From: Sinohyriopsis cumingii
Lineage: Eukaryota > Mollusca > Bivalvia > Unionida > Unionidae
Reading direction: 5' to 3'
Length of the DNA: 64,000 bases
Assembly: GCA_028554795.2 (NCBI GenBank)
Contig: CM068832.1
Span: forward strand, 82,515,680-82,579,679
Part shown: in pieces, positions 6,301 through 61,243 of the stretch
How the letters are laid out: the number at the start of each line of letters is the position of its first letter
Numbering within the stretch: position 1 is the first letter of the stretch
Program-made: the position numbers and the translations under genes
The notes under the pieces: generated by a model
The model's database searches: none
What the model saw: only the letters and a program-made list of their open reading frames with translations
Told to the model about the DNA's origin: nothing

Positions 6301-6940
6301 AACGATCGACAGGCTTTGATAGGTATTTGGAGATTAGTCTTAAATCACAGGACTTTGTTAAATCAAAATGATACAACACATTAGGTTAATTCAATATATT
6401 AGTCCTCATCACCATCTCTAATAAACTTGTATCGACTCGCAGCATATCTGAAAAAACCTTCCTGGTGAAAGATTTATATGTCAAATTAAGAATTTGAATT
6501 TCTAGATGAATGCAACTATTTTAATTTTTAAATTGTGTGTGCATATGCTTGTTTGTATGTTTGTGTCATGGAGATTCCCATTTCCTATTCATGCTTGCGT
6601 ATCTTAAGTGGAATTTATTAATTACTATTAGCAAAGCATTATTTAATCTACCAATGTTCTGAAGATAACATTGTCGGACCGACATACACATTCAATGATA
6701 TAAAAACTAAAAGTAAACATTGATCTGTTACCTGAATGAGAACTGCAAACGGAAAGCGTCAATGTAGCAAGCATGTTTGATGCTGATGTAACGTAACATG
6801 GTGACATGTGGTTCTGTCCCTAAATGAAAATAGTTGGTCAGTAGTATCGAATAATTCCTATGACCATTACAATATCTGAATGCATCTTTTCCTTTCTTTC
6901 TCTCTCTATCACACACACCAGCACACAAACACACACACAC
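3304..6940. repeat. Tandem array unit 2 (half A then half B)
   Basis: Near-identical to unit 1 over 3,307-4,900. It then carries about 560 bp (about 4,928-5,480) that unit 1 lacks, and rejoins unit 1 at the TTTTTTCAAAGAACAATG box. It shares with unit 1 the same missing 590 bp near 3,560, so both descend from one deleted ancestor that was then duplicated. The extra segment includes a box (5,215-5,370) that is related to the 120-bp repeats at 9.0-9.4 kb. No protein family was recognised. Confidence 0.75.
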
Positions 6941-8990
6941 GCGAAGACATATAGAGCCATTAACTTAAATATTTTCATTTACACAGATGAACACTCGATG
7001 ATATTTAATATATTCTAAATTTAGCAGACACAGTAGTAACTTCTATTTACGTTCCATGGAATGTATTCCCATCCTAATAAAATTGTGGCATTAAATACAT
7101 GCTAACACTTGACTTTATATATCAATGGAGTGTTGTAGCAGCGATTCGGAATAAAGCGAAATGACAAATAATCTTATTCGGTAGCATGCTTTTCTTTAAC
7201 GTGCTTAAATATTGCTAGTTGATCGAGGAATATAAACATTGGCAAACAGAAAGATAGCAAAACTATTGCATGTTTTCAGAATATAAAACGTTATTAAACT
7301 TAAGACATCGGTGAGGATGAAATTAACATTATATACCACAGCGTCCCGCCACAATACATCCAACTACTATCATTTGCAATGTCATATCTTTCCCCAAATC
7401 ATTTTTTATTAGTCTGCTGTATTATTAACGGTACACATTAACCAGAATGGTATGTCCTTTGTGCGCTTGACCCATATATATATCATCTTTATTAGGGTCT
7501 AGTTCACCTCAGACAGGCTAAGCTGTTGTGCATGTATTGTTCTTGCTTTGTATGAACAAGTGACTTCATGAAATAGTATAAGCATAATGCACACACTGCA
7601 TCATAAGTTTCGAGTGGACAAAAACCTGAAAAGTAATAAGACAAGAGGTCAGTCTCATATGGCCAGTTATTTTATTTATTCCACTTTCATCATTTGTCAG
7701 TTGTAAAATTATATTTGGTGTTTCTTTTGTGCCTCAAAAACAACCCGGATGTTTTTTAGCTTCATCCTTCTCGTTGTACACCATTTACCCATATATGTAC
7801 TGATTTTGTCGCCAATATTGATTTAGATTAGATTTTGTTCTTAATAAAAGAAACGGGTAATTTCGTGCATGCTATAACACAAAACAATAACATTTAGGTC
7901 ATAATCTATTGGAGTGCCAACAATAATTTTGTCATACTGCATTAATATTAACATTGATTGTTAGATGGCTAGACCAAGGCTGCATTGTTTTCTTTCTCTA
8001 AATAAGTATTTGCACACCAATGCCCGAACGTGACATGGAAGAATGTACCATTACAAAATATATAATTAAAGAAATATGGCTATGTTCCAAACTTACTCTC
8101 TGTAGGAGAGTATTTTAAATCGTAATTTAATCTCTCTCTCTCTCTCTCTTTCATAAGCATAATGTAAGAAGAATAGAGCCCATGGTTTGCACCTTACATT
8201 ATACGATATCAATCAATTCCTTTTGTCAAATTGTCCTTTTGTTTGAAACTGGTTACCCCTACACAGAGAACAAGGGACGCATTTAAAAGATAGTCATGAT
8301 TAATATAATAGTCAGCTGGCATACTAATAAAGGAAAGCTTTAATCAGAGGCGGCTATTATTGCTTAGATACAATTGCTCCCCTCCATACAGCTGAAAGAA
8401 TACTTTTTATGGGGTCATTGGAATACCATGGCTTATTGTTTTATTATGTTCAGTATTTTCGGTACTTTATTTTGTTCGAGACAAAAGTGTTTGCCATGTC
8501 GAGAAAATGAAATAGTCAAAACAAGCCGATATCTTTTTTTCTTTTCTTTTGCTGAATTTCTTGCAAGGATTGGTTGCCTACCTTCTCAAATTCTTTTCTA
8601 CGTCCACTGCCGTAATAACATCTTTGCAGACCACATCAGGGTTTAAACATTATGGTTGTAGCATGAATTTGTCTGCTTATGTTTACCCAATTTTCATCTT
8701 CGTAGTAAATACAAATGTTCTCTTACTTTGCTTGTCTGACCGATTTTTAACTTTGCTTTTTTCTGAAACACCACTATCTCTTTATTGACCTTTGCCGAAA
8801 GCGTTGAAATATAGTTAAGGTAAATGAACGTCAGCGTACGCAAATGACACTGATATATTTATATTGGTTATGCCATTTTTTAGCATGGGTGTTAGGTTAT
8901 CAGTAATATTTCATCGCTCTAACATTATACATATTTTCCAGAACGTATGACGTTTAACTTAGAGATAAAATTAAAAGAAAACATTGATCC
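6941..8990. repeat. Tandem array unit 3, diverged
   Basis: Same order of boxes as units 1 and 2 but clearly more diverged. It keeps about 590 bp (7,210-7,790) absent from units 1 and 2, with counterparts at 25,090-25,560 and 27,135-27,240. The A-half motifs are readable: the CT repeat at 8,130-8,150, the AGAATAGAGCCCATGG box and the GGGGTCATTGGAATACCATGG box near 8,411. Short open frames at 8,374-8,788 overlap in different frames and look incidental. Confidence 0.65.
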
Positions 8991-9440
8991 ACATTCTGTC
9001 AATTGAACGAGTACTGTTGTCTATCTTGTACCAATGTCTACTTTCACAGTGATTTTGTTAAAAATGTGCGTTATTTATTTGTAGTAATAGCTCAGAACAT
9101 ATATGTAGCCACGTGCTCGTTGTCAGTGATATAACTATATCCACAAGGTAAATGTTAATACTAATAGAGTGCGTCTTTACTTTGTAGTCATTCCTCTAAC
9201 TAAATGTGTAAACATGTCAACTGTGTACCAATGTCCACACTCGTTATGTTTTTAGTATACATGTGTGTTCTTATATTGAATTGATCGTTCAAACTAAATG
9301 TGTATTTATGTCGTCGTTGTTCATGAGGTACCAATGTCCCCATGCTCCATTTTGTTGATAATAATGTGCGTCTGTATTTTGTATTGATCGCGCAAAATAG
9401 AAGGATAAAGATGCCGACAGTCTGCTAGTAATACTGTGCC
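8990..9440. repeat. Degenerate tandem repeat of about 110-120 bp
   Basis: Three to four decayed copies of a unit naming ACCAATGTC, then GTTAATAATGTGCGT, then a box ending in CTCA or CGCA before the next copy. A related single copy is present in array unit 2 at 5,215-5,370, which ties this short array to the larger repeat family. Confidence 0.5.
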
Positions 9441-17899: not shown

Positions 17900-22750
<4,851 letters not shown>

Positions 22751-23609: not shown

Positions 23610-24830
23610 CAGATTACAGAATAGGGTCAGTGGAATACCATGGCCTATTGTTTTCAATATATTCAGTATGTCCTGCACTGAATTTGGCCCAATTTATAAG
23701 GTTCATTATATATGGAGACAATATAAATCGCTTCTTCCAAGGATCGATGCTTACCTTCTCAAATCCAGTCCTATTATTACCTCCGTATTAACATAACTTT
23801 GTAGGCAGTAAGAGGTTTCAACATTATGATTGTAGCAGGAGTTTGAATACTTATCTTTATCCCAATTTTATCTTCATGATAAATAACACTCTGCCCGCTT
23901 GCATTACATGGCTGACCGATGTGGTTTTTATTTTTATTTTGTCTTAAACGTCACTCCCTCTATATTGACTGTTGATAACATAGTTAAAATATAATGAATG
24001 TAACTGCAGGCTAGTGTGCGCAAATAATAATTATTTATTTATATTAGATATGTCAGTGTGTTGCATTTATGTAATATTATCATGTATATTGTATAGCTCT
24101 AACATTATACATGTTTTCCATAAGGTATGACCTGTAAATTAAAATGCAAAATATATCATTTCGAGCCTGAGACCATGCTTTGATAGGTATTTTGAGTTTA
24201 CTCTTAAATCACAGGACTTTGTTAACACGAAATGTTGCAACACATTACGTTCATTCTATATATTAATCCTCATTAACGTCTCGAATAAATGTACATGGAC
24301 TCGCTACTTGGATCATATTTATAAAAAAAAAGTTTCTGGTAAAAGATTGATTGTCAAGTTACGAATTCGAATTTCAAGATGAATGCAACTATTTAATTTT
24401 TTTACATGTGTTTGTATGTGCTTGTTTGTGTGTTCGTTTAATGGAAATTCTCAATTTTGTTTCATGCTGTCATCATATGTTATATGTTATATGGAATTTA
24501 TTTAGCACTTCAATAAGGCATTAATAACTGCACCAATGTTCTAAACACAACATTGTCGCACCGACATCCACGTTCCATGATCTAAAAACTAAAAGTTAAG
24601 ATTGTTCTAACGTCTGTCAACTGAATAAGTACTGAAAAAAGAAAGTATCAATGTAGAAAACACATGTATGATGTTTATGTAAGTTAATTGCTGACGTGTG
24701 ATTCTGTCGAGAAATGAAAGTAGATGGTCAGGTTTAATGCATAAATCCTAAGACAAGTACAATATAAGAATGCTTCTCTTCCTTTCTCTCTCTTTCTCTC
24801 TCTCTCTGTCTCACCCACACATAAACACAT
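23610..24830. repeat. Dispersed copy of the 3-kb repeat family, half B type
   Basis: Carries the B-half boxes in order: CTGAATTTGGCCCAATTTA, the AACATTATGATTGTAGCAGG box, the ATAATGAATGTAA box, TTTGATAGGTATTT with TCTTAAATCACAGGACTTTG, and the ACGTTCCATGAT box near 24,569. Order and orientation match unit 1 (about 2,030-3,010). It is clearly diverged. It joins directly to the A-type copy that follows. Confidence 0.65.
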
Positions 24831-26285
24831 ACACGTACACATATATACCCATTAACACATATGTTTTCTTTCACACATATGTACAAACAAGGATATTTAA
24901 TATATTCACAACCTAACAGACACTTGTATTTATGTTCCATGGAATGTATTCCTATACAATTACAATTGTAGCAATAAATACATGCGAACACTTGACTTCA
25001 TATATTGGTGGAGAGTTCCAGCAGGGATTCGGTATAAATGACAATTAATCGTATTCGGTAGCATGCTTTATTTTCACATGCTTAAACATTGCCAGTTGAT
25101 CAAGGAATATAAACATTTACAAACAGAAAGATAACAGAAATATCTTATATTTGCAGAATACAAAACATTATTAGACTTAAGACATCGGTGAGGATGAAAT
25201 TAACGATATATCATAACCTCCCACGCCATACCCCCACCCTCCATCTATTGCAATGTGCTATCTTTAGCCAAATAGTAGTCTGCAATATATTCAACTGTAA
25301 ACAATAACCAGAATGACATGTCCGTTGTCCGCTTGGCACATACATATCATCGTTATTAGGGCCTAGTCCACCTGAATCAGGCCTAATATGTTATGCATAT
25401 ATTGTTATTGCTGGTATGAACGAATGGACCATATCACAACAAAACAAATACAATAAGAAGTCAACCTGATATTGTCAGTTTTTGTACCTGAAAATCAACA
25501 CGCTTGTTTCTTTTCTTTATCGATCTCGTTCCACACCATTTTCAGATATCAGTACTGATTTTGTCGCCAATATAGAATAGTTTATGCAATGACACAAAAC
25601 AATAACATCTAGGTCAAATGCTATTGCATTACCAAAACTAAATGTCATCTTATATTAATATTAACATTGATCGTAAGATGTTTATACCTAGTAAGCTTTG
25701 TTTTCTTTTTCCAAAGAAATATTTGTACACCAATATACGAATAAGACATAAGAAAGTACCATTACAAAACACTTAATTAAAGAAATATGGCATTGTTCCA
25801 AACTTACTCTCTGTAGGGAAGTAATTTAAATCGTACATCAATCTTTCTCTTTTCTAAGCACAATGTAAGAAGAATAGAACATATGGTTCGCCGCTTATGT
25901 TATACGTAATCCATGAAATCCTTTTGTCAAATTCTCATTTGCTTTGAAACTGGACGCGTTCAAAAGTTAATCACGTGTAATATAATAGTCTAGTGGCATA
26001 CTTATAAAAAAGAATCTCTAATCAGAGAGGGCCATTAATGCTAGATACAATTACTCCCCTCCACATAGCTGAATGACCTCTACTTATGGGGTCATTGGAA
26101 TACCATGGCTTATTGTTTTGAATTTATTCAGTATGTTCTGTACTTTTATTTGTCCGAGTCAAAAGTTCATGCTTTATCGAGAACATGAAAGAGCCAAAAC
26201 AAAACAATTTCTTTTTATCTTTTCTTTTACTGAGTTTCTTGCAAGGGTGGATTGCATACCTTCTCAAATACCTTTCTGCAATACC
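24831..26285. repeat. Dispersed copy of the 3-kb repeat family, half A type
   Basis: Starts at a short CA-rich tract and follows the order of array unit 3, including the 590-bp segment missing from units 1 and 2 (here about 25,090-25,560). Clear boxes are AGAATAGAACATATGGTTCGCCGCTTA near 25,870 (first 20 bases best conserved) and GGGGTCATTGGAATACCATGG near 26,088. A SINE interrupts it at 26,297. Confidence 0.65.
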
Positions 26286-26296
26286 ACTACCACCGT

Positions 26297-26545
26297 TGTA
26301 GTTGTTGTTGTTGATGTTGTGGGTTTACCGCCATTGTTCAGCACACGATAGGCTATGCATGGCGGCCAGTATTAATGGTGGAGGAAGAATCCAGGAAGAA
26401 CCACCGACCCACGAGAAGTTACTGGCAAGCTTTCTCACATACCCACATTGGCCGAATGCTAGACACGAACCCACGCAGACCGATGTGAGATAGCAGTGAT
26501 ACGTAACTGAGAGAGCTTTAAACCACTCGGCCACTCGGGGTCCTG
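26297..26545 (-). mobile_element. tRNA-derived SINE with perfect 11-bp target duplication
   Basis: Minus-strand copy: (CAA)n-type tail at 26,297-26,320, the CCAGTATTAATGGTGGAGGAAG box, TGGCAAGCTTTCTCACATA box, box B (rc of ACACGAACCCAC) and box A (rc of CCACTCGGCCACTC). ACTACCACCGT flanks it on both sides (26,286-26,296 and 26,546-26,556), proof of retroposition into the 3-kb repeat copy. No protein coding. The tRNA head looks Ser/Leu-like. Confidence 0.9.
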
Positions 26546-26556
26546 ACTACCACCGT

Positions 26557-27240
26557 AACACCATTTTTGCAGACCAGTGGACATTATTTAGCCCTCTTGA
26601 TAAAGCATTATTTACACAATCATTTCTTTGGACACAACATTGTCGTACAGACATGCATTCGATGATATGTAAATTAAAAGACGACATTAACCTACATTAT
26701 GTCAACTGAACGAGTACTGAATATAGATAGCATGATTGTAGAGTGCACATGTCTGATGCTGATGTAAGGTGACTTACCGACACGTGGTTACGTCGAGAAA
26801 TGAAATTATATGATCAGACGTAATGTATAATTCCTATGATCGTTTTAGTAATCATCATACTGCTCTCTCTTTCTTTCCCTCTATCTCAAAATCTCACTAT
26901 CTGACGGACATATATACACTTACTCGCACATATGAACAAACACATAGATTTAATACATTCGCGGGTTAACATTTTAATAACTTGTGTTTACGTTCCAAGG
27001 GTTTGATCTCCATACCTTTACAATTGTCACATTATATGCATGCGAACACTTTATCTGATCTTTTGTCGGAAACGTTCTAGCAGATATTCATAATAAAACA
27101 TAAAGACAATTAAGCATATCCGGTAGCGTGCCTTACCAATTGATCACGAGATGGAAACCTTAACAAACAGAAGGATAGCAAAAATAGCTCTCTGCAGAAA
27201 ATAAAATGTCAGTAAACTTAAGATATCATTAAAGATAAAA
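26557..27240. repeat. Continuation of the 3-kb repeat family
   Basis: After the SINE the family resumes with the box around AAAGCATTATTTACAC, the GATGCTGATGTAA box near 26,756 and the CT-rich, CA-poor stretch to 26,910, then the A-half start and part of the 590-bp segment (27,135-27,240). It ends near a purine-rich tract. These correspond to about 2,945-3,230 and 7,000-7,330. Confidence 0.55.
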
Positions 27241-28010
27241 TTATAAAAAGAAGAAGAAAAAGGAAGAAAGAAGAAAACGAGGAGAAGGAATGAGATGAAT
27301 AAGAAGGAGAATGTTTTATTAACAATTTTAGGCCATATGCCAATATTATAAAGCAATAAAATATGCTGTAGTGTGGGCCATATGTACAGGGCCTAAACTG
27401 TGCATTATCTAGTGAGTTAGAAAAAGATCTAAATTATATTTTGGATATTATATTTAGTCAATTTAGTCAAAGTATCTGTCTTCTAGCTGTACAAAATAGT
27501 AACGTTTTACTCTACTGTAATAACGTGTCGCTGACAACAAAATTATTGTTCACAAAGATAAGATACAGTGAACATTGGGGCCTCTTAATGGAAAATGTGT
27601 ATATTACATTTTAGAAAGAAAACTCTGAAACAGTGGGTCACATAAAGGATTATTTTTTACAATTGTCATTAAAGATAGTAGCCACTCGTGAAATTCACAC
27701 TAGTCATTGTAAGCCAATATGTTTGTGCAACCTGTACCTCTTTATTTCATTAAACGTTTGGATTTTCAGTATGCTGCGCCAGAACACATAGTTAGACTCT
27801 TACCAGGACACTCTTGTCTTTTTATCATATGTTATAATATTATAAAGGGTATGACAGCACAAATCGCTTTTCTCTAAGTGATACTGAATTCACTAATTGT
27901 CACCTTAACATTTTTGATTACTTCATCACCTCTAACTAGGATCATCATTTGGTCAGCACCTAGCTCAAAAACCGAATGTGACATAATCAGATAAATTAGC
28001 ATAAAAATGT
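27240..28010. other. Purine tract, then no recognisable feature
   Basis: 27,246-27,312 is a GAA/GGA-rich tract. From there to 28,010 the sequence is AT-rich, with the left edge of the virus-derived element probably somewhere inside. I see no gene and could not identify a terminal repeat. Confidence 0.3.
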
Positions 28011-28012
28011 GA

Positions 28013-28201
28013 CTATCTCAGAACCCACTTACATTTACCATTGATATAGACACCTTACATCCTGAAAACGAACATGAATTTGATTTACATCGGCAGTATG
28101 TTAATCACTCACCAAAAGATGAAGTCCAACTATATAAATACAATTTTAAATCGGTTGAATTTTTCTGGAATTTAAATACACAAAATCAGCACTGTCAATA
28201 A
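28013..28201 (+). pseudogene. Unrecognised open frame at the left end of the virus-derived element
   Basis: A 62-codon stop-free frame (TAA at 28,199) without an early ATG. The amino-acid make-up looks like real coding: IDIDTLHPENEHEFDL near the start, then a mixed acidic/aromatic run with VEFFWNLN near the end. I know no family for it. It is the leftmost coding-like segment on the plus strand, diverging from the minus-strand block that follows, so it may be part of the same element. Confidence 0.4.
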
Positions 28202-28832
28202 TTTCGTTGATCCAGTTAGAAGGTTTATTCGACGCCTTAGGTACGAATTAATTATATTCAGTTTAATTTTAGCAAATAGGATAAAGGTTTTGTTTTTGTT
28301 TGGGTACATCGCCGTTACATTAGAATTTGTTAGTTTTCGCTATTAAGATATTCTCCGCTTAACAGTGTTTTAGCTGTTGCGATCAGAAAGATATCCTGTT
28401 CGTATAAATCCTAACTTTACCGTTAATCATCCTGTCAGTTATCAACAACATCCTCATTTAATGTATATCTGCAGTTCAAGCAATATACATGTGACTCGTG
28501 AAGATCGGTTGTTATTTTTGAGTACATGTGATGACAAACATGATCGTGGAAGTTAGTATATATTTATACAAATATCACTAGTAGCACATTAAGTAATTTG
28601 AATTACTGACCTTTTCTGTTCTAATTAAAGACTTTTTGATTTTATCTGTCAAAGCCTGACTTAAAGAAAAGACCAGATACTTCTCCGTCAAGCGCAGCAA
28701 TAAGTGGTTTATATTCATTAATATTTCTTTTAATTTGCTATCTTTTCTGATATCTTTACTGTACTTTTTTCTGCTATTTCTTCAATACTCTTAGCAATAT
28801 TAATTTCGCGATACTAGGCTCTTATATGACAT

Positions 28833-29078
28833 TTATAAGTTAACAGGGGACGCGACGTTTGCTGAAAAGTCGCACAAAATTATATAATTTCGTTCGATAT
28901 TTACCGATTGTATCTCATCTAAATTTATTCTAGAACCAATTTATTCAGGATCATCTAAAACTTCCTGATATTTATTCTGGTATTTTTTCTCAAATCTGCT
29001 GGATGGAATTGGTAGATTATCTCTCAACATACTGTCAACTACAAGAAACTCTCTGATCCGGTGGTCTATATCATACAT
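28833..29078 (-). pseudogene. Unrecognised protein fragment of the virus-derived element
   Basis: An 82-codon frame from ATG at 29,078 to TAA at 28,833 with one in-frame TAA at 28,941-28,943. Reading through shows a well-mixed soluble protein with YDIDHRIREFLVVDSM near the start, SSRFEKKYQNKYQEVL before the stop and NYIILCDFS after it. I cannot assign a family. It is the downstream end of a minus-strand block of several such pieces running from 31,976. Confidence 0.45.
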
Positions 29079-29379
29079 AACTCCTCTCAGATATTACCTT
29101 GTTTGAGCAAGCAGTTTGTTGATAGTACTTACTGGTGCTTTTCAGGCGGATATTTTAGTCACAACACGTCGTTCGATCCTTGTATCATCAGCTGTTCAAG
29201 TTACAACGATTCCTGAAATTATAAGCAGAACTGGATGTTACGTCGCTCGACCAGATGTACTACCCCTCCTGTCCAAATAACGGGTAGATATGACATCAAC
29301 TTTAAAATTTTTACATAATGACGATAAGCTCTTCTAGTACAATAAGATTTCTTACGACAGAAGTTTTAGTACGCGATTA

Positions 29380-30190
29380 GCTCATTCTGATCTTGTTCTA
29401 GAAGGTCATATAAAATATGATTGAAATCGATAACTTGTCGTGTCTTTATTATTCTGTTCAATAATACCTACTTTCTTCAGCAGCTTCGTCAGCTGAAAAC
29501 CTGAACTTAGGATCTGCCATAAACTCGCGCTATCAAATCTAGCTGATGTTTGTGTCACTTAATTGTTCTTCCTTATCTTTAGTATCAACTTTTCTCCCTT
29601 ATTAATTAAAAACCCCATCAACATTATTAAACTTATCGATACTCTCCAGAGTGATAACATAGTTCCAACATATCAATCCATTCTAATGATGCCTTAATAA
29701 TATCAAGCGAAGTTTTTTCCAAGAGTATATATTGACGGACTACTGAGTATGCTACAGCAAGCTAAGATCTTCATTCAGTAATGCTATCAAGCGTTATTTT
29801 TTCGTCTACTAAAGGTTTACATTTAATTATTTCGGGATCTGAAAGAAAATAGTTATATTTTTAAAATCACTTTGAACACTGATTTGTTCGTTCGAGTTCT
29901 TTTTCCTTTGTATATGTTTTCGTTGCCTCTGGAAGCGTGTTTTCGTACATATGATCTATTGTATCCATATCATTAGCATAATTTGTTACAGTTTCTTCAT
30001 ACTTGTCGATATACTCGACAACTTTTTAAAAGATCTCTAGGATAAAATCGATGTTTAAAATGTTTCGCAAGTACAAGGTAAACATTCGCAAAAGTATCTA
30101 AAATATCAGCTTTTGCTAATACACCGTTAATGGCAGGTTTACGATGTTTCTATGTTTGCTTTCATTTATTTGTATTTTAATTTTGTTAAT
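29380..30190 (-). pseudogene. Frameshifted remnants of a minus-strand protein gene
   Basis: Several coding-like pieces follow each other in different frames. The clearest is 30,025-29,867 (53 codons), acidic, with YIDKYEETVTNYANDMDTI. Just upstream another frame reads DTFANVYLVLAKHFKHRFY (about 30,100-30,044). A third piece at about 29,550-29,410 reads LWQILSSGFQLTKLLKKVG. Together they look like one long protein with accumulated indels. No motif places it in a family. Confidence 0.45.
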
Positions 30191-30202
30191 AGTTTAATAG
30201 TT

Positions 30203-30437
30203 TCGGGGGGGGGCGAGTGGCCGAGTGGTCTAAAGCGCTCTCCGTTACGGATCATTGCTATCTCCCCTCTGTCTGCGTGGGTTCGAGTCTAGCTACTCGC
30301 GGGTCGGTGGTTCTTCCAGGGTTTTCCAGGGTTCTTCCTCCACCATTAATACTGGTTGCCATGCATAGCCTATCGTATGGTGAAAAATGGCGTTAAACCC
30401 CACAACAATAACAACAACAACAGCAACAGCAACAACC
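30203..30437 (+). mobile_element. tRNA-derived SINE, near-complete, inserted in the virus-derived element
   Basis: Starts after a run of G with box A GAGTGGCCGAGTGGTCTAAA, box B GGGTTCGAGTCT, the middle box GGGTCGGTGGTTCTTCC, the CCTCCACCATTAATACTGG box, GTTAAACCCCAC and a CAA/CAG-rich tail. Flanks ATAGTTTC and ATAGCTTC (one mismatch) look like the target duplication. It splits a minus-strand viral reading frame: the codons for CPFEEDLAGERQKEISMVEY (30,509-30,450) lie right next to the insertion. Confidence 0.9.
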
Positions 30438-30439
30438 AT

Positions 30440-30530
30440 AGCTTCTAGACGATATTCCACCATACTTATCTCTTTCTGACGCTCTCCTGCTAAATCTTCT
30501 TCAAATGGGCAAGTCATTTTTGTTTCACTT
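30440..30530 (-). pseudogene. Minus-strand viral-element fragment cut by the SINE
   Basis: The frame starting with ATG at 30,517 (MTCPFEEDLAGER...) reads as coding for about 27 codons and then enters the SINE. Upstream pieces at about 30,750-30,560 in two other frames (ELGLDYNDVETVLAVNGET; then IEAHTALYALTKSKHE) belong to the same decayed gene. No family recognised. Confidence 0.45.
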
Positions 30531-30833
30531 AAGCGTTATCAAGATTTTTGTATTAGTTTGTTAAATTTATTCTTATCCTTCAGGTGCTACTCGTGTTTCG
30601 ATTTTGTCAATGCGTATAATGCAGTATGAGCTTCAATATCACTTTAATTTTGGGTCGATGTCACAAGTACACAATAAACTGTTGTTAATGCTTTCAGAAT
30701 CAGATGTTTCACCATTTACTGCCAGAACAGTTTCAACATCATTATAATCCAGTCCAAGTTCTCTTTAGAATCATGGTCTAGCAAAAAGGTCACGAATTGT
30801 AACAGTTTTACTTAATACAAGGTTCTTTCATCG

Positions 30834-31175
30834 TCACTCCATATTTTTATGCTGAGTGCCTTTTGTTTTGTCAGCAAACGTTCTTCTGTTTACGCTTTTG
30901 CCACGATAAATCGTCAGAGCATTGTCACGAATAAACTCAAGTGTAGTGTTAGGAAGACGCTCCTCTAGCTGTTTCTTCATAGCTGTATTTGAGCAATAAC
31001 TAACAAATACGTCATACCGATCTAAAATTTCTCATCTGCTCAGAAGCAATGCGCGAACTGACTGATAGTTTAACCATTTGTCTGAAAACTCGTCATATCT
31101 GTCGTCGTGTTTTAGACTGTGCAGATCAGCATCTACTTTTGACTGAACTGGTGGAATGTTACTCTTTCCAGAGCT
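30834..31175 (-). pseudogene. Unrecognised conserved-looking protein with one nonsense codon
   Basis: One frame of 114 codons from just after a TAA at 31,178 to a TGA at 30,834, with a single in-frame TGA at 31,034-31,032. It has no early ATG, so the true start is lost. It shows a charged N-terminal part (VDADLHSLKHDDRYDEF), then RYDVFVSYCSNTAMKKQL, then EFIRDNALTIYRGKSVNRR. The last stretch looks like a nucleic-acid-interaction or structural segment but I know no family. It sits immediately downstream of the tail-fibre-like gene on the same strand. Confidence 0.5.
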
Positions 31176-31289
31176 TTATATCCGAGATAAGATTAAAAAC
31201 AAAACATACCACTATTGGTAAACGTCAACTATAGGATTCCTCTTTATTTTGTTGTTTACACTAAATAATCCAACAAGAATATTTCAGAA

Positions 31290-31976
31290 GTCGTTAAAAC
31301 AGGATTGAATGGTTCCGCATTTGTACAAAAGATTTTGAGCCACTTGTACGTATGTAATTTTGATGCTGTGTCAAGGGTAAAGCTGGTCCAATTTAAACTT
31401 CAACAGCATTATATACTGTTATAAAATTATGGTCTTCATTAGATCCATCTAATCACTGTTTAGAAATGCATCCGGATTCTGGTGATGTTCAACCTCGCAG
31501 CTGAAAATTCCACATTTCAATTGCAGAAGGAAGTGTTATCTTAATCCGCAATTCGTGTCAAGACCACTTGATGCCCACTCCATTCCAACATTGTTCACAA
31601 AAAACATAAGTAGGCATAAGTAGGCTTGTTTCCCGGACAGCTTGATGATGCTGTTGCAACAAACCCCAATCGACTATTAGTAGCGTCAAATAAATGTAGT
31701 ATAAATCCAACTATTTTTTATTTTCTTTATTCAACCGCCGACAGTAAGAGAATAAGCATACGTTTCATTGATACTTATTCGTACTGCAGATGATATCACT
31801 TTATTGTTAAGACTTTCTGTCATAATATCTCCGCTTTTCATTACGTTTTGACTACTTACCTTATTTAGCTGGTTCATACTAACAGCTTGAGTTGTATCAC
31901 TTCCAGCAAACGAATAATCAAGTTCCAAGTTCAAAATGTTCTTGCCGGACATTTCAAGATCTCCTATTATTGTCAC
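31290..31976 (-). pseudogene. Phage-tail-fibre-like protein, broken
   Basis: The frame begins with ATG at 31,976 and reads GDLEMSGKNILNLELDYSF early on, the GD(I/L)-M-(G)-K-I-NL repeat known from tail-fibre and receptor-binding proteins of phages and of some large animal DNA elements. The open frame ends at 31,731. Coding continues in shifted frames: a segment with DATNSRLGFVATA (about 31,690), then ITLPSAIEMWNFQLRG (about 31,540) and LDGSNEDHNF (about 31,450), resembling a C-terminal beta-rich binding domain. At least four stops or indels make it dead. The role is inferred: an attachment protein of the ancestral virus-like element. Confidence 0.6.
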
Positions 31977-32237
31977 CAGATTTACTTACATAAATATTTT
32001 ATTGTATTTTTCTGGCTTTTATTAATGTACCCTCTCCATTTCCAACTAAAATTCTAAACTTTGTGTAATAGTTCATTCTATTCATCTTGTCTGATAAAAT
32101 TCTGGATAACATTCATCAAAATATTGTCTGATAAAATGTAGTTTTCTCAACTTACAGAGTCTGATAAAATGAATGTTCGATATTGTCTGATGACATATAA
32201 TTTAGTTTAAATCCATATAGAATGAGCATTATTAACT

Positions 32238-32720
32238 TTGATGCAAAAATACCTTATCGAACATCAGCATAGTCAAATAGTTGAAGGTACTGACTCTGCA
32301 AAAACGAACTTGTCAATGAATATATTGTGTAAGATTTTTCTGAACTATGACAAAGTTTATATTTACATGCTTAATTTGTTGCAAGATAGGTACGAATTGC
32401 TCATCGAAAATACAAGGAAAAACTAAAATAAATACTTGGTGCAAAGGAAGATATTTTTTTTATTAGAAGACAACCGGAAGATGTTGCTGTTGCTCAGGTC
32501 CATTTGAACGACCATAAGATTATATTATTTGACGACAGTTCCCTGAGCAACCACGAAATGGTCGGGATTAAATCACATTAATAATTGTTAGAGAACTGGA
32601 AATGCAATGCAATTTACCTTCCGCAAGGGTTTTGTAACGTCAGTCATTTTATCAGGAGAAACTCGTGCGTTTTATACTATTTCCTGGCATTGACAATACC
32701 GACTTCCAGAATATAGCATG
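32238..32720 (+). pseudogene. Genome-packaging ATPase (A32/FtsK-HerA-like), broken
   Basis: The first open frame (32,238-32,426) carries a P-loop-like GTDSAKTN at 32,286-32,309, in which the usual glycine before Lys is Ala, followed by a strand reading YDKVYIYM. In a second frame the Walker B region KIILFDDS lies at 32,516-32,539. After two stops, a segment with AIYLPQGF and FIRRNS (about 32,615-32,670) matches the glutamine sensor and arginine region of A32-type packaging ATPases. In the family this enzyme pumps DNA into the capsid. Neighbouring capsid-like remnants support the call. Frameshifts, stops and the altered P-loop show it is inactive. Confidence 0.65.
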
Positions 32721-32936
32721 AGGGTTATGTGTGGATGTCTCAAGAAATAAATTTGTTGAGCTTTAACATAAAGCAACAAGCAGAGGCCAACACGGATGCT
32801 ATGTGTTTGACAGATTCGCAACTGATCGTAGGCGTATATTTTGCTGTGGTAAAGACGAGTTCTTGCTTAAAGATTAATCTAACACTTTGCTTACTACGGC
32901 GACTAGCCAAATAATAATGTAACAGAATGCTATAAA

Positions 32937-33368
32937 ATGGACCCTAAGAAAATTGAACTTCTAAATAATGTGTTTGGGACAATAGCCGCATTTAAGACAC
33001 AATTTGAAGAAGCACGATTCGGACAACAACAAACTGCAGAGAAAACTGAAAGACTTTATAAACCAGTAACTGAAGCAGTGCTCGGTAAACAACTGGGTAT
33101 TGCAACTTTATCATCAGAAGATCTGGAACAGTTGAAAGAAAGAAAAAAATCTGTGAGACACTATTGAAGAAAAGCAGCAACAAGCTCCAAAACAAATTTA
33201 AAAACAATCGGAAAATCAGATGAAACCCAACGTGAAATGATACAAAATATTGATGTGCAGTGGATATAAGATGAAGAAGAAAACCAAAAATTGCTAGAGA
33301 AAAAAGAGAGGCACAACGAGAAAAAAAGTAATGCGCAAAAAATCAACTTTTTGCATATATATTGATTC

Positions 33369-33464
<96 letters not shown>

Positions 33465-33640
33465 TCGATGATGAATTATTTGTAGAACCATTGTTTGTAT
33501 TAATTATTTTTTTTAGAAAGCGAAAGATGATGACAGGAATAAAATCATCAATGAAATAGAAACTATAAGTACAAATAATGAGAGCGCCACTCATGATATG
33601 GAATCAGCTAATCAAGAAGAAGCAAGAAATTTATATAAAA
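32937..33640 (+). pseudogene. Charged coiled-coil protein of the virus-derived element, broken
   Basis: The open frame (32,937-33,167) encodes a 76-residue helical, Glu/Gln/Lys-rich protein with EKTERLYKPVTEAVLGK in its middle. The same frame continues past TGA with SDETQREMIQNIDVQ, past a TAA (about 33,270) with an acidic/basic stretch, to a TGA near 33,363. A (TA)n expansion then interrupts, and a further acidic segment (KAKDDDRNKIINEIE) runs from about 33,518 to a TGA near 33,643. I associate proteins of this type, with a central KP(V/I)TEA-like phrase, with large virus-like elements of invertebrates; the function is unknown. It sits between the ATPase and the minor-capsid-like remnant. 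Confidence 0.5.
33369..33461. repeat. (TA)n microsatellite
   Basis: About 90 bp of pure TA repeat that lies inside the coiled-coil pseudogene. Long repeat-coded frames across it on the minus strand are artefacts. Confidence 0.95.
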
Positions 33641-34065
33641 AATACTGAACAGTATTATTTAAGGTACTTATATTAAGATTATTGGGTAAATAATAAAGGG
33701 GAAAATAATTTACTGAGGGTAGACATAAGTTACGAACACTTGGAGGAACACTTAACGAGAGAAGAGTAAATAAAAACAGGCTTTGGTATTAAAATATTTT
33801 TCTAAATAAGTGAAATTAAATGAACAATTGCTGCTTATTTTATCAAAAGGACTTGGAAACGTCAGCAGAGAAATCGACAATTAAATTGTTGAAATTTTAG
33901 ATCATTGCCGATCGATCGGATCTCTAATATAGACGAATAGTTTGTGCTGGATAACGATTTGATCTAGTCCGAGAGTACATTTTGACAGGCAAAGTTTTAT
34001 ATATTAACTGTTATAATAATAGTTTAAACAGCGTTGTTACTCGATTAATATCACGCTACAGCTGA

Positions 34066-34729
34066 CAGCACGAACCTTTTGTTACGTATATCTCGCCAAT
34101 CGAACTTGGTCCGAATCAGCTATATAAAATAGGATTCGTTTCAGCTACTGCTTGGTATGCGATGGTCAAGATAAACACCGTGGACAAAGATGATTTTACG
34201 TTTCATTCTGGAGTTTGGACTTCGGTCAGGATACCGCAAGATGCTTACAACATAATATATTTAAACAAGATTATATAACTGATAATTTTTATCTATAACA
34301 CATTTCGAGCAAAGATCACGGTAAGAATAATATTCTTGTTGGTTTTAGCAAACACAACATCATCGGATCAGTACTCTGATTTAAAAAACAGCAGCTGTTG
34401 ATGTTGCTTCAATTTTATATGAGGATGAGTCTCTTGTCAACATCACAGACGTAAACACAATTCTGATATATTGGTCAATTGCGATGGGAAGCAGAAGGCA
34501 TACAATTTATAATTTTAGTCCTGAAGTTCCGCCAGGCTTGTTAATGAAGGGTACTCATAGACAGATTATATATTATCCAATTAGCGTTGACAGTCAGATT
34601 TCGGCTATTACAATGACAATGACCGCACAGTCTAATCTTACTTACGAATTTTTAACCTACCACCTGAACTTAAGATTGCAGGTTCTAGCACCCAGTAATC
34701 AGCTTGATCACCAAACGTTTATCTAACGA
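34066..34729 (+). pseudogene. Minor-capsid-like protein of the virus-derived element, broken
   Basis: A 70-codon frame (34,066-34,278) without start codon shows HEPFVTYISPIELGPNQLYK and ends in RIPQDAYNIIYLNKII before a TAA. Short pieces in two frames follow (ILVGFSKHNIIGSVL near 34,340). The last frame (34,484-34,729) has SRRHTIYNFSPEVPPG and then a beta-rich end (SQISAITMTMTAQSN ... LRLQV). This layout, an alternating beta-strand N-part with a C-terminal FSP-V-PPG turn, belongs to a family of uncharacterised proteins common in metazoan genomes next to double-jelly-roll capsid-like genes. I infer a vertex or minor capsid role. Stops and at least two shifts make it dead. Confidence 0.55.
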
Positions 34730-35025
34730 TTCAGATAAATAATGAAGCAATAAAATATGTATCGGCAAAAGATGGTATGTTACTTCGGAAACAATTTCTC
34801 AAAATAGTTGAAAATAAAGTAGCTCCTGTCGTAATATATGCATCAACACATTTGCAATAGGAGCCGCATCACCAGCAAAGAACGCTGTCGGACAAAAGAT
34901 CGCTAAGATCGCTGGTAATCTCGAAGGCGTACTACCCGCTTCTCAACAAACGATAAATTAGGCTATTTTGTTAAAATCGCGTCAACTTCAGAATCAGCAA
35001 GAGCTATGATGAAAACAACAAGGAA
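34730..35025 (+). pseudogene. Small unrecognised virus-element frames
   Basis: Two overlapping frames look coding. One reads IKYVSAKDGMLLRKQFLK and ends at TAG near 34,858. The other, from about 34,830 to TAG near 34,960, is Ala/Gly-rich with FAIGAASPAKNAVGQKIAK. A single one-base shift would join them, but this is inference. Small Ala/Gly-rich hydrophobic proteins accompany capsid genes in this element class; the role is unknown. Confidence 0.4.
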
Positions 35026-35083
35026 AATGTTATCTAATACATTCTAAGAAATTGATCAAACCTGGTTATACGTGCCAGACTAA

Positions 35084-36060
35084 AACCCGACATTGCAGCT
35101 TTCTAGCAACAGAGCTTCGAAATTGTATCCAGAGAACAACAAAATGATGTCAATCAATAATTTTCTTGAGTTAACAGAGGAAATACCAACAGACGACTCA
35201 TCAACAGAGTTCGAGTAAGTAAAATATCCAGACGAAAGTTCAAACGAGCCTAATGAGATGGGCCAGTGTACATTTAATGCACGTGCTGAAGATATATTTG
35301 TGCTGCCGCATAAAGCTGTTCTCGCAATAGAATTCTAATAACTGTATTTGTAGATTTTGCTCCTGTTGTTGAAATTGCGCTTATTACGAACCTCTGGAGT
35401 TTTTTTAGGAAGCGTTGGTATTCAACTCGTCAATCACACTGTGGAAAATATTTCCATGCATTTGCCAGTTGCTAGAACCATTTTGAATATAGTGTCGTTC
35501 AGTAAAGATTACTCGAGAAGCATCGTAAGGATACAGGACTGCTGATGCATCTGATTTACTGAGAGTTGCTACAGCATCAGCTGAGGGTGCTAACCACGCC
35601 GAGACTAGTGCTACTATTATTGCGTTTTTAGTTCTGCTTCAGGCTCAGTATGCAACAGTTCCCTCAGCTGATAATGCAGAAGGAAATACTATAAAAACGA
35701 TAATAGCTCTTTGTAATACGATTCTAATTACCCCTCTATGTGCTGCAGCTAACACAGATTCTATACTCGGAAAAACGCAATATATTATTCCAATGATCAA
35801 CGCTCGATCTTACAAAGAAGTTTAAGCTAAAGACGATATGTTATAGATAGTTCAAATCAAGCTAAATGATGTTTCCGTTAAGTATAATATTTGCTTTTTG
35901 TAGGATTTATGACAAGGTATTTCGTGGCTTGAAACACACGCTTATTATTACATGCTCATTTTTGTCACCGTTACGTTTACATTCTCAGAATGGTGCAGTA
36001 TGTTACGATATTGAACACCTTCATTTTGCACGACACGTGTGCCTAAAGATAGTGTAATAT
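35084..36060 (+). pseudogene. Double-jelly-roll major-capsid-like protein, broken
   Basis: The first frame (35,084-35,338) has one TAA at 35,216 and contains NFLELTEEIPTD and then EDIFVLPHKAVLAIEF, the N-terminal strand pattern of the double jelly-roll-like family. A next frame (35,357-35,545) reads NHTVENISMHLPVARTILN. A third (about 35,545-35,830) is Ala-rich, with QAQYATVPSADNAEG. The best-preserved family signature is in 35,866-36,057: FPLSIIFAFCRIYDKVF and GLKHTLII. In the family these proteins build icosahedral capsids of Polinton/adintovirus-like agents. The copy has at least five disruptions and is not functional. Confidence 0.6.
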
Positions 36061-36065
36061 ATTAG

Positions 36066-36461
36066 GAACTACTTTATAAACAAACCATCTACACGTGTGT
36101 GGTAGACGCTTTATGTTTTGGTGAAAGTACTGACGATATCGTTAACAATATGGACGAGTTCACGGAATCAGAAACGAACCTATCAAAGAAACAAACAAAA
36201 GCAATATCAGCAACAAACGATGTAGAAGCAGTAATTGAAAATACCGATCTGGTGATTCAAACAGTTGTTTAGGAGAATATCCATATCTTTATGCAGATAG
36301 TGTGGTAAAGACTACGATGAGTGCTCCCTAGGATCTAGCAAACTATATTATATTCAACCATACTGAGGCCAAAGGCTATCACATATCTATCAGAGGCGTA
36401 TCACTTTACAAGTCTGTGAAAATACTAGGTTCGAGAAAAAAAGTATATAAATGTTTTTGAT
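36066..36461 (+). pseudogene. Two overlapping viral-element frames, unrecognised
   Basis: Frame one (36,066-36,272, 68 codons) is acidic, with FGESTDDIVNNMDEFTESE. Frame two runs from about 36,223 to a TGA near 36,461, with one in-frame TAG near 36,329, and reads GEYPYLYADSVVKTTM then EAKGYHISIRGVSLYKS. They overlap by about 45 bases in different frames, so they may be one protein with a shift or two genes. No family recognised. A further coding-like piece (SIDETHRKVQVIAEVPLIAR) lies at about 36,575-36,640. Confidence 0.4.
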
Positions 36462-36699
36462 AGGAAACTAAAAGCCTAAAGCCCAATAATCCAAGACGAC
36501 GAAAATGTATTATTTTCGCAGCGTAAAAGCTTTTTTTCAATTTTCTATGTGCAATTGTTTTGATAAAATGTTAGGCTCTCGATAGACGAAACACACCGTA
36601 AGGTACAGGTAATAGCTGAGGTTCCTCTAATAGCAAGATAAAAGTGACAGGACATAAAAATGTTTTCTGTAGCTGGTAAAAAGAATGGTAATAAATAGA

Positions 36700-37165
36700 C
36701 TTACATTTTTGCGTTTTGACTTTCCTCTAAATGTCCTTTCTTAGCTAGTTCTTCCAATCCGAGATATGTGTCCTGCAAAACCTGCTACACAACGAAACTG
36801 TACTGAAATTTCGAGTAGGCTACTCCATATGAAATCCATTCCCCTCACTGCACCCAATAGTATAGTCCCTCATAATCAGAAAAATATAATTGATTTGGAT
36901 CAAAAAAGAAACAAAATTCATGCGCTTTCATTAATAATATGGCTCTAAATTTCAGTTTTAAGTAGACCAAAACGACATTTCGAATTGAAATTGATGTACA
37001 GTGCGGGACTAAGTTGAATGTTGCTGAGCAGAGCTATGTGCTCATGAATACTATTATAATGTATTGATGAATCTACGGTTGTGAATCTATTTTGGAAAAA
37101 AGCATACATTCAATTATATTTTTTGTAATGCCTTAGGTAGTTAAACAAAATGAGCATATGATACA
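36700..37165. other. No recognisable gene
   Basis: AT-rich sequence between the plus-strand capsid remnants and the minus-strand remnant to the right. A 60-codon plus frame (36,766-36,948) matches nothing known to me. Confidence 0.3.
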
Positions 37166-37170
37166 AAAGG

Positions 37171-38086
37171 TTACTGCATTTGCATAGGAAAAATGAATTC
37201 AATTTTGTTCTGAAAAATACTACACTCCGAAGGGCCGTAAAGTATTTTCAGAAACACTCGTCCATATTTTCCAATACTAAGGCAGTAACTTAATTTTTTT
37301 GACAGAGCATATCCGAACGACTGTCTGATAAGAACTGCTGGTACTGCAGCTCCAGATGTTGGTGACGACAAAAAGACAACGCGTATGCACTAATAACATA
37401 TGACAGATTCTTGACACTTAACGTTTTAAAAGGTAGAAGGAGCATGAAAGTGTGAGTGACGTCTACCATTGTTTCGCAAGAATGAAGTATATCTATCATA
37501 TAAGTACGTTTATCAGAAGCACAAGCTTGCACAAGGCGCTGCAAACATACTAGCGGTTTCAATTAAGATTTCGGAACCTCACGAGGTCAACGCGTACGAA
37601 CAATATTACTTTTGACACCAACTCATATTCACAAATTTTAGCAAGATAAAAACATTTCATGCTAGATTCATAAGCAGCACAAGTCACTGCCATGTCGAGA
37701 TCGCAAGGAATCTACAGTAGTGTTCTATACCTGCACTTGCAACTATCGCAAGAACAATATTACCAAAGATACTTCCAATGCTTAGAACACCAGGTATTGC
37801 TGCAGCATCAGGCGCTGTTTTAGGCGCGAGAAATAAAGCGGTACAAAGGAACGGAGTCCTGAGATGAAATTAAAATTGAGTTGAAATTTATTTTCTGCTT
37901 TCATTAAAAACTGCTTTTGCCAGCTCGCTTAATCGCAACATTATACTCTGATGCTGGTTGATTCTCTAAGTAGGTAAAACAATTTTGAGAAATCATCATA
38001 CTCTCAAGTAAAGATTGGCAAAACCTAATACAATAATGAGTGTAAAAGCAAGACCCAGCTAATTCATAACAAAAACGAGAGAGCAA
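37171..38086 (-). pseudogene. Minus-strand remnant with Gly/Ala-rich hydrophobic segment
   Basis: Coding-like pieces run on the minus strand in shifting frames: 38,086-37,904 (60 codons, with ENQPASEYNVAIKRAGK), about 37,825-37,690 with AIPGVLSIGSIFGNIVLAIV, a membrane-like segment, and 37,562-37,290 (90 codons, KRTYMIDILHSCETMVD) overlapping 37,371-37,171 (RQSFGYALSKKLSYCLSIG). They converge on the capsid-like genes. The hydrophobic stretch resembles small accessory proteins found beside capsid genes in such elements, but a family cannot be named. Confidence 0.4.
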
Positions 38087-50329: not shown

Positions 50330-52745
50330 TGCTGTCTTGCCACTGCTGCAGATCCTGTCAACATGCTCAGTGTCTACGCTCCCACCCTCACGTCATAAGA
50401 AGACACAAATGATCAGTTTTGTGGGCAGCTGGAGGAACAGATAAACGGATGACCTAAATATGAGCCACTATTCCTCCTCTTCGACTTTAAGGTCAGAGTA
50501 GGTGTTGACCACGAGTCATGGCCTATTTGTGCCGGACATCATGGCACTGGAAAGACCAAAGTAAATCGACAGAGACTGCTGAAGCTACTATGACCTGTGC
50601 GTTACAAACACCTTCTTTATGTTTGCGCCACAACACAAAGTGTCATGGAAATATACCAGGTCTCAATGCTGGCACCAGCTCGACATGGTCATCACCAGGC
50701 GCTCTGCCGTGAACAGCATCCTCTCAAGCAGAAGCTTCCACAGTGCAGACTCCAACTCCCACCACGCCCTCGTGATCAGCAGGATGCGCCTACAGCCACA
50801 CACACCACACCACTCAAAACCAAAAGGTAGCCCTCGCATCAACACTGCGCAGAAATCGGTCTAATCCAATGTGGAGGAGTATGTGTCCGCCCTGGACCAG
50901 GCTCTCCAGAACCTGCCAGAGCACGATGTCACAGCCACGTGCAACGCCATGAAAGGACCCATCTACAGCACATCCATGTCCACGTTTGGCAAGAAGGAAC
51001 GGCCCAGTAAGGACTGGTTCAACGCACATCTTTCAAAGATGGAATAAATAATCGAATTCAAACGAAAGACCTTCATAGCTTACAAATATTCCCGAATGAA
51101 CGGACTCTTGCTACCCGCAGACGTGCCCGAAGCATCATCCAACGCATTGCTAGACAGTGGAAGAAAGAGAACTGGCATCAACTGTGTGAAGGAATCCAGC
51201 GCAGTGCCGAGTCTGGAAACATCCAAGGTATGTACAGTGGCATCCAGAAGGCTCTAGGCTTTACAGTGAAAGGGCTCGCTCCCCTGAAATCTCAGTGCGG
51301 CTTCAGAGAAGGAAGATCGACAACAAACATGATATTCTCCCTCCTACAACTCCATGAAAAGAGCAGAAAGCAAGGTCAGCCACTCATCATGATGTTCATC
51401 GACCTCACTATGGCCATCGACCTGGTCAGCAGGAAGGGCTTATTTGAACTTCTCAGTAAGATCGGATGTCCCTTAAAACTACACAGCATTATAATATAGT
51501 TCCATGCCGATATGAAGGAAACAGTCTTGTACTTGGATCCTCCGCAGACTCCTTCCCCATCAACAGCGGCATGAAGCAAGGCTGCGTGCTGACGACGACC
51601 CTTTTCGGGATCTTCTTCTCCCTGCTCTTTTCATACGCCTTTGACTCGTCCACTGATGGCGTATATCTGAACACCAGGTTCGACGGAAGGCTTTTCAACC
51701 TAGCATGACTAGGCTCGAAGACCAACGTGAAGTCGGTGCTCATCAGGGATATGCTTTATGCGGATGGCGCGGTTCTTGTGATCCAATCCGAAGTTGCCCT
51801 CCAGAGAATGGGAGACCGTTTCGCTGATGCCTGTAAGCAGTTCGGGCTCACCATCAGTCTGAACAAGACAAACGTCAGCGTGCAAAATGCTACCACTGCC
51901 CCTTCCATTAAAATTGACGGTATTACCCTGGAAGCGATCAACAACTTTACTTACCTGGGATCAAGCAACAGCAACACTCTCTCACTCGATGTGGAGCTGG
52001 ACAGAAGGCTTGGAAAGGCAACATCATCATGACAGGACTAAAAAGATGGTGTGGGAAAACAACGCGCAGACAGAGCACATCAAGATCCGACTTGCGTTCT
52101 CTGCCCCCTCCTATATGGAAGTGAGATCTGGATCACCTATATGAGGAAAGAGTGTCGGCTCAACTCCTTCCATATGTGGTGCCTAAGACACATCCTGAAA
52201 ATTAGCTGGCAAGACCGCGACCCACACAGCGAGATCTTGTAGCGTGCGAGTATCCTCAGCATGTACGCCCTGCTGAGCAAATGCGCCTTCGATGGCTGGA
52301 TACGTCTGACGCATGGATGAAGGGAGGCTGCCAGAGGACATCCTATATGGACAGCTGGCCACTGACACCAGAAGAGTTGACCTCCAACAATCCGTTTCAG
52401 GGATGTGTGTAAGAGGGTGATGAAGGCATGGAACATTTAATCCGACGGCTGGGAAGTACAGGCCGAGGACCAAGGCAACTGGAACAGACGGTCCGTAAGT
52501 GCGTATCAGTCGCTGATGTGAGGAGAGGACAGCTGGCGGCAGAGAAACGTGAGAGAAAGAAGACTTGCCAGTACGTCAGCACCAGTTGCAACAGGGACTG
52601 ACACTGGCGCATAGGCCTACATAGCGACAGCAGACATTACTAAAACCCAAGTGACAGACGACACTTCAAGGGCGCTATTCCCATGGTCTCTCGAGACTGA
52701 ACCGCCAACGATGCAATGCATAACGTGTGCATAGAAGGATAGATA
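50330..52745 (+). mobile_element. Endonuclease-RT LINE (second family), dead
   Basis: GC-richer than its surroundings. Domains in order: an endonuclease part starting at about 50,350 (LSVYAPTLTS; then FDFKVRVGVDHESWPI near 50,485; RHGHHQALC region near 50,680; TTPLKTKR), RT (FREGRSTTNMIFSLLQLHEK from 51,301; DLTMAIDLVSRKGL near 51,400; SGMKQGCVLTTTLFGIFF near 51,569; LYADGAVLV near 51,753), then LLYGSEIWITYM (about 52,110), FHMWCLRHILKISWQDRDP (52,170-52,226) and a C-terminal Cys/His end (TCQYVSTSCNRD near 52,563). Several frameshifts occur and 5' truncation is likely. Clade not assigned. Confidence 0.85.
51230..52032 (+). pseudogene. RT domain of the second LINE
   Basis: Three frames cover RT: 51,230-51,499 (motif A region, with AIDLVSRKGL where the usual motif-A Phe reads Ile), 51,466-51,708 (motif B, GMKQGCVLT) and 51,727-52,032 (motif C plus thumb). 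Motif C reads LYADGAV: the second catalytic aspartate is Gly through one base change (GAC or GAT to GGC). With the shifts between frames, the enzyme is dead. Confidence 0.8.
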
Positions 52746-59555: not shown

Positions 59556-59569
59556 GGACTGCATAAATG

Positions 59570-61240: not shown

Positions 61241-61243
61241 TTA

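Follow-up and report, generated by a model that had tools for sequence, protein, structure and literature searches.

What kind of element lies near the middle of a 64,000-nucleotide stretch of the genome of the bivalve Sinohyriopsis cumingii (contig CM068832.1, C9 in our numbering; the whole stretch is called the window below), and what did it once encode? An initial annotation, made from the letters alone, had read positions 28,013-38,086 as a decayed virus-derived DNA element with plus-strand genes, in order, for a packaging ATPase, a coiled-coil protein, a minor-capsid-like protein and a double-jelly-roll capsid-like protein, and with a minus-strand block that opens with a tail-fibre-like gene. 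We conclude, with a probability of roughly 92%, that the region holds the dead, mutated remains of a virus-derived, interspersed DNA element of Polinton/Maverick/adintovirus kind, with its virion module preserved. No present function of the window copy is visible.

Copies of the element and their gene order

Comparison by blastn with copies fetched from the 2.9 Gb host genome established that the region 28,071-37,848 is one member of an interspersed family. Eight other copies were taken as separate 10-kb stretches and, with dispersed-repeat rows excluded, each aligned partly with the window in collinear order (44 matched pieces, 65-86% identity). The recognised extent, 28071-37848 with no strand assigned, runs from the first to the last base matched by any fetched copy and lies close to that claimed initially; its leftmost base was set by the C18 copy and its rightmost by the C11 copy, with other matches ending nearby at 37846 (C6), 37843 (C12) and 37820 (C4). 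Since the sequence common to the C11 and C4 copies extends farther right than the matched part of the window, the true right end of the element may lie beyond 37848, or may have been lost here. The search of the host genome for relatives, which the initial annotation had proposed as a check, thus returned interspersed copies with unbroken frames. We refer to a longer unbroken open frame in a genomic copy as a natural frame, and such frames were used to identify the broken pieces of the window.

The plus-strand gene order proposed for the window is borne out by these copies. Genome-wide protein searches, in which the best 150 candidates were scored for each query so that the counts are lower bounds, returned 723 candidates for the minor capsid protein (scored matches, self included, all at E<=1.6e-10), 13,306 for the capsid (E<=5e-23) and 17,963 for the ATPase. 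A same-strand capsid match lay 0.66-1.27 kb downstream of 44 of the 150 minor-capsid matches, where about 0.02 would be expected by chance, and no minor-capsid match had a same-strand capsid match upstream within 3 kb. Similarly, a same-strand minor-capsid match followed within 5 kb in 41/150 ATPase matches (in 37 of these at a distance of 1.68-2.50 kb), and no ATPase match had a minor-capsid match upstream. At the DNA level, the minor-capsid stretch gave 22 match rows in the host genome, self included, the others at 63-77% identity apart from the C9 copy described next. One further copy is found on C9 itself (G000:C9:82296961), ~253 kb from the window copy; it is 97% identical in the minor-capsid stretch, matches 32.9-36.2 kb at 94%, and probably arose by segmental duplication, not by inserting a second time.

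The divergent two-block layout is also evident without reading any protein. The strongest purine strand switch of the whole 64 kb falls at 32,250 (contrast 0.199; next best, 0.110), with minus-like purine skew from about 28,150 to 32,250 and plus-like skew rightward of 32,250, and a weaker switch at 28,150 coincides with the left edge of the element. Block permutations equalled the 32,250 switch in 0, 1 and 7 of 1000 trials with blocks of 500, 1000 and 2000 bases, respectively, and in 4, 5 and 40 of 1000 once the most skewed kilobase (33-34 kb) was removed.

Most of the named frames retain a record of former coding. Eleven plus-strand pieces had been picked before any copy was known; against eight copies they differed at 842/3137 third codon positions and at 1425/6300 first and second positions (p=3.9e-6, a pooled value that is optimistic because the copies are related by descent), and the effect was gone when the frames were shifted by one or two bases (p=0.83 and 1). 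A nine-piece pool with one end trimmed gave 784/2873 against 1280/5763 (p=1.3e-7, optimistic for the same reason; shifted, p=0.95 and 1), with an individual p<0.05 in six of the nine. On the minus strand, p was 0.04 for the fibre piece described below and 0.19 to 0.52 for five other pieces. Plus-strand open frames between 32.2 and 36.3 kb were enriched for G at codon position 1, with a mean excess of 0.111 over nine frames and a shuffled-frame baseline of 0.018 (standard deviation 0.057). The number of open-frame pieces of at least 60 amino acids (aa), 32 compared with 19.4 in shuffled sequence and above all 200 shuffles, was dropped as coding evidence because a control region at 9-17 kb does equally well (33 vs 15.4).

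Genes of the virion module

All the motifs quoted by the initial annotation, and the fibre-like piece, were found where they had been placed. The major capsid gene is read in several plus-strand pieces. Its first half comprises 35084-35215, 35219-35335 and 35354-35542, which match 5, 10 and 11 distinct natural frames, and carries a third-position excess (p=0.006 and 7e-5 within 35084..35542). The middle piece, 35529-35822, is 44% identical over 61 aa to L235:2-484 (1e-12; 5 natural frames). FCRIYDKVF...GLKHTLII lies in 35866-36054 (p=0.04), of which 35866-35949 is recognised as capsid at 73% over 26 aa to L226:173-478 (4e-10; 9 natural frames), the best matches to copies covering only the first 28 residues of the piece. 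Three of ten natural frames matched PF21738 (DJR-like_dom, Double jelly roll-like domain), namely L226:173-478 at 4.8e-6, a second frame at 1.7e-4 and L235:2-484 at 3e-4, the best of them scoring 26.4 bits where the cut-off is 27. All three derive from the gene's second part; the four capsid frames from its first part were unmatched. A link was also found to a 458-aa open-frame capsid elsewhere in the genome (L244, G000:C1:162036501-162043500), which matched the L213 relative of the first-half pieces at 3.4e-12 (23% over 114 aa) and the window piece starting at 35866 at 4e-7 (62% over 24 aa). In L244, same-strand open frames of 612, 167, 177 and 177 aa surround the capsid, and among its frames of at least 100 aa the capsid alone matched window pieces. 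Judged by sequence, and only via these relatives, the capsid module is of the Polinton/Maverick type.

The minus-strand block opens with a phage tail-fibre-like gene that is divergent from the plus-strand block both in the window and in copies, as the initial annotation had it. Its piece at 31734-31985 is 54% identical over 72 aa to L220:2391-2645 (7e-17) and is matched by 7 natural frames in 5 loci. This natural frame matches a 'putative tail fiber protein' of Roseobacter phage CRP-738 at 5e-6 (4 records at E<=1), and a second one, L214:2648-2920, matches tail fibres with a best value of 2e-6 (16 records at E<=1). Throughout the 4 phage rows for the former and the 10 rows listed for the latter, the annotation was tail fibre. 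Searched alone against phages, the window piece gave nothing significant (E 6 or worse).

The packaging-type ATPase is likewise identified via unbroken relatives, less firmly than the capsid and the fibre. Its first plus-strand piece, 32226-32423, after which the frame breaks, holds GTDSAKTN and is 49% identical over 47 aa to L227:533-1084 (1.4e-10), the sole natural frame that it matched. The second part, 32432-32713 on the same strand, includes a Walker B-like stretch with KIILFDDS (32432-32578) and an adjacent stop pair at 32579-32584; it is 54% identical over 48 aa to L227 (3.6e-11) and 53% to L218, with a third-position excess at p=0.008. A plus-strand tail in another frame, 32638-32718, is 58% identical over 24 aa to L218:1681-1893 (3.4e-6; p=0.004 for 32638-32874). 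L227:533-1084 is an unbroken 184-aa frame with a consensus P-loop (Walker A) and Walker B, and its Pfam matches are ResIII (0.0055), Pox_A32 (0.011) and FtsK (0.093), all under the cut-offs. The initial annotation had taken GTDSAKTN for an ATPase motif: the gene is supported by this relative and its P-loop, but the window letters deviate from the consensus Walker A at glycine positions.

Between the ATPase and the capsid are two further plus-strand genes. A helical, coiled-coil-like protein piece at 32907-33164 is 60% identical over 43 aa to L235 (2.9e-15) and matches 6 distinct natural frames; AlphaFold2 run without an alignment predicted four helices (mean pLDDT 67.8). The protein in the minor-capsid position is read in two pieces, 34066-34275 (9 distinct natural frames, best 6e-15; p=0.02) and 34385-34723, which contains NFSPEVPPG (19 distinct natural frames, best 3e-33; p=0.005). 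Its position beside the capsid gene and its conservation suggest a minor capsid role.

Capsid assembly and a route of integration we infer. From what is known of the family, the living ancestor would have built a shell of double-jelly-roll protein trimers, with the minor capsid protein encoded beside the capsid gene closing the five-fold corners and the P-loop ATPase pumping DNA into the shell. The helical protein may have decorated or stabilised the shell, while the divergently transcribed tail-fibre-like protein would have bound the host cell. Copies would later have resided in the host genome, decaying.

Several other features lie within the element. In the minus-strand block, a protein piece at 30837-31031 matched L214:3450-3686, its sole natural frame, at 60% over 43 aa (3.5e-11; third-position p=0.19), and had no significant family in Pfam or PHROGs. 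The frame that adjoins the fibre gene in the minus block of one copy, L214:3000-3239, resembles by eye a discoidin-type carbohydrate-binding head; Pfam and PDB gave nothing to confirm it. At the right end, a possible small hydrophobic, alanine-rich protein was read by eye at 37721-37864, on the plus strand with the strand uncertain, in DNA common to the C6, C11, C12 and C4 copies; copies are matched as well by two frames on the minus strand, 37293-37562 and 37687-37869, neither of which shows a third-position excess (p=0.42 and 0.46). A dispersed repeat at 30190-30430 (no strand assigned), similar to at least 5 other window sites, is absent from the C6 copy, which passes from 30204 directly to 30439, and was therefore inserted later. 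From 35,949 to about 37,350 the window holds ~0.8 kb more than the C6 and C11 copies. Within this surplus, an open piece at 36066-36269 has a coding-like composition, yet it matched 0 natural frames and was left out.

Replication genes, terminal repeats and rival readings

Several observations weigh against a virus-derived element of this kind. First, the broken frames of the window are not recognised as they stand. Pfam and PHROGs searches with 10 window pieces each, and PHROGs with 7 more, gave nothing significant, nor did Pfam on whole window frames over 20-46 kb with X at stops. The profile check on capsid and ATPase that had been set beforehand gave no match in these frames; it is too blunt for such decay, since some unbroken relatives do match. 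Second, the natural frames matched Pfam only below the curated cut-offs, ResIII outscored Pox_A32 for the ATPase frame, and ten further natural frames gave nothing significant. The minor-capsid-position protein had no fold or family support from Pfam or PDB: two of its natural frames had no Pfam match, and a structure prediction for its piece was uninformative (pLDDT 36). Third, besides the optimism of the pooled p-values, a third-position excess was lacking in three of the nine pooled pieces (first ATPase piece, p=0.105; helical piece, 0.81; capsid middle piece, 0.74) and in two pieces outside that pool (the second helical piece, 33168-33266, 0.98; the earlier frame of the ATPase tail, 32717-32911, 0.90), and only 5/10 named plus-strand pieces exceeded 95% of shuffled frames in position-1 G, the ATPase pieces, the second minor-capsid piece and two capsid pieces falling short. 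Fourth, Pfam frame scans of 20-46 kb found no polymerase, integrase or protease, and self-comparison of the window at E<=1e-4, which short repeats could escape, found no long inverted pair flanking the element other than dispersed repeats. The 25 longest of the 268 inverted pairs in the window all fall within one AT run; the terminal inverted repeats that the initial annotation had suggested seeking are thus not present at a length that can be seen.

Searches farther afield were similarly unproductive. Window pieces found no relative in protein databases, nothing significant among phage DNA or phage proteins, and nothing convincing in PDB, where the best match was a designed protein to the fibre piece (0.0036, no single stretch passing alone). 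Scans of viral contigs returned 7 and 17 stretches, none confirmed, other scans returned 0 loci, and no capsid relative emerged. Seventy viral loci from one scan had, by eye, no capsid frame, 114 viral polymerase-motif loci were by eye mostly phage-like, and tblastn of 283 pieces against these 184 loci gave a best E of 0.02. One further viral locus and 13 bacterial matches in the genome contigs were judged by eye to be chance.

For the replication module, the frame scans, with X at stops, covered both strands at 22.1-41.9 kb and one strand elsewhere in 20-46 kb. No Pfam match to an RVE integrase or an adenovirus-type cysteine protease was found in the window frames (the copies were not searched for either), and neither the OTU-type PolB nor the chromodomain integrase that define adintoviruses was found in the scans run. 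These absences are weak evidence, for the ATPase and capsid of the window escaped those profiles as well. As a positive control, the same kind of scan did detect reverse transcriptases in broken frames of the window, at 18002-20001 (RVT_1 4.7e-17) and 50501-52502 (RVT_1 5.7e-6).

We lean towards the element belonging to a complete Polinton/Maverick family, with polymerase, integrase and protease present in better copies and lost or unrecognisable here. The same genome holds double-jelly-roll domain matches (126 scored of 15,190 candidates) that are all above the Pfam cut-off, all but 4 (by our count) without a stop and for the most part open frames some 456-458 aa long; these genes belong to other, apparently young Maverick-type families. 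It also holds 75 scored matches (of 21,498 candidates) to DNA_pol_B_2, many of them open frames of ~1,360 aa without stops. Together, these open-frame genes indicate that complete Maverick-type elements probably exist in the genome. Published vertebrate Mavericks are, moreover, mostly degraded, with inverted repeats often indiscernible (PMC8097293). Against a complete family, a 633-aa polymerase piece from the same genome had no tblastn match better than E=0.78 in the vicinity of the window or across 45 loci of the genome, and 0/75 polymerase matches came as close as 20 kb to any of 181 capsid-gene positions, these being partial lists in which the 181 are a subset of 300 minor-capsid and capsid rows from the best-scored part of the genome only.

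The same negative scans, alongside a reverse-transcriptase control showing that broken genes are detectable, would fit a distinct lineage that never had its own polymerase, a satellite-like capsid-and-fibre element borrowing replication and integration. We regard this as unlikely: decay conceals genes, as the missed ATPase and capsid illustrate, and the polymerase probe may belong to another family, with lists that hold only the best-scored part. Its most specific form, an abundant lineage with a capsid and a phage-derived receptor-binding fibre, without polymerase or integrase of its own and living as a satellite of the seemingly intact Maverick-type elements, is a speculation to which we give still lower odds.

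It is similarly doubtful that the region derives from a different group of double-jelly-roll viruses, for instance from an integrated giant virus or polinton-like virus of protists. The Pox_A32 match and the fibre genes described for protist polinton-like viruses (PMC12220804) would suit such an origin; the large number of copies across the genome speaks for an element that was mobile or integrated repeatedly, and the capsid is distantly related to the abundant open-frame capsid family of the same genome. That host genes or chance open frames were misread as viral is scarcely credible, for although profiles do not recognise the window frames and protein databases hold no relative, copies on many contigs in a fixed order and the double-jelly-roll and tail-fibre matches contradict it. 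A decayed virus-derived element with a Polinton/Maverick-type capsid module remains our reading; of the initial family assignment, the capsid module stands, while polymerase, integrase and protease were not found nearby. We do not claim full Polinton membership, because defining features of that group were looked for and not found.

Elsewhere in the window, repeated blocks at 130-9143 and 23621-27243 match over as much as 1.9 kb (64-95% identity) and include short open stretches that are conserved; Pfam gave nothing over the cut-off for them, and they may be a gene or repeat beside the element that was duplicated in tandem. At 59566-61243, ~35 copies of a 48-base unit form an open frame (a 16-residue repeat) with a period-3 signal stronger than anywhere else in the window and no Pfam family above the cut-off.

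Comparison with known systems

The analysis points to a capsid-forming, fibre-bearing virus-like lineage that spread widely and then decayed, beside Maverick-type families with open genes. The genome is thus suited to asking whether elements of this kind are viruses or transposons, by what means they bound cells, and whether the fibre gene came from phages. Among the literature searched, with subscription papers mostly outside its coverage, no title concerned this element family.

The genes described for Polintons (PMC4028283) include polymerase, integrase, ATPase, protease and capsid, with a penton gene close to that of the capsid. The element resembles them in its double-jelly-roll capsid, the gene in the penton position upstream of it, the probable packaging-type ATPase and its many copies in a eukaryote genome, and differs from them in that no polymerase, integrase or protease was found in it. 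Vertebrate Mavericks carry the ATPase in one module and the minor capsid, capsid and protease in the opposite one; the majority of their copies have decayed, and in many of them inverted repeats can no longer be made out (PMC8097293). Decayed Maverick copies have also been reported in mammals (PMC9683012); they share with the element broken frames, a partial gene set and the lack of terminal inverted repeats, and were identified via an intact turtle relative, whereas the element here was identified via unbroken frames in copies within the same genome.

The initial annotation had called the gene set unusual. The fibre gene is uncommon, but phage-like fibre proteins are already reported for protist polinton-like viruses, which are thus alike in joining a double-jelly-roll element to a phage tail-fibre-like gene (PMC12220804). 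Unlike them, the element sits in a 2.9 Gb host genome, and the endosialidase chaperone domain described as widespread among them was undetected in the frames scanned here. The plus-strand set is matched most closely by that of adintoviruses, whose virion genes PacK, Cah (coiled-coil), Penton and Hexon are the counterparts of its four genes, a hydrophobic 'Macc' class also being named (PMC11071296); no sign was seen here of the OTU-type polymerase and chromodomain integrase by which adintoviruses are defined. Capsid modules of this type, and fibres in polinton-like viruses, are therefore already in print; with no replication module found, the element differs in the one-strand order of its genes from ATPase to capsid and in the fibre gene that diverges from them.

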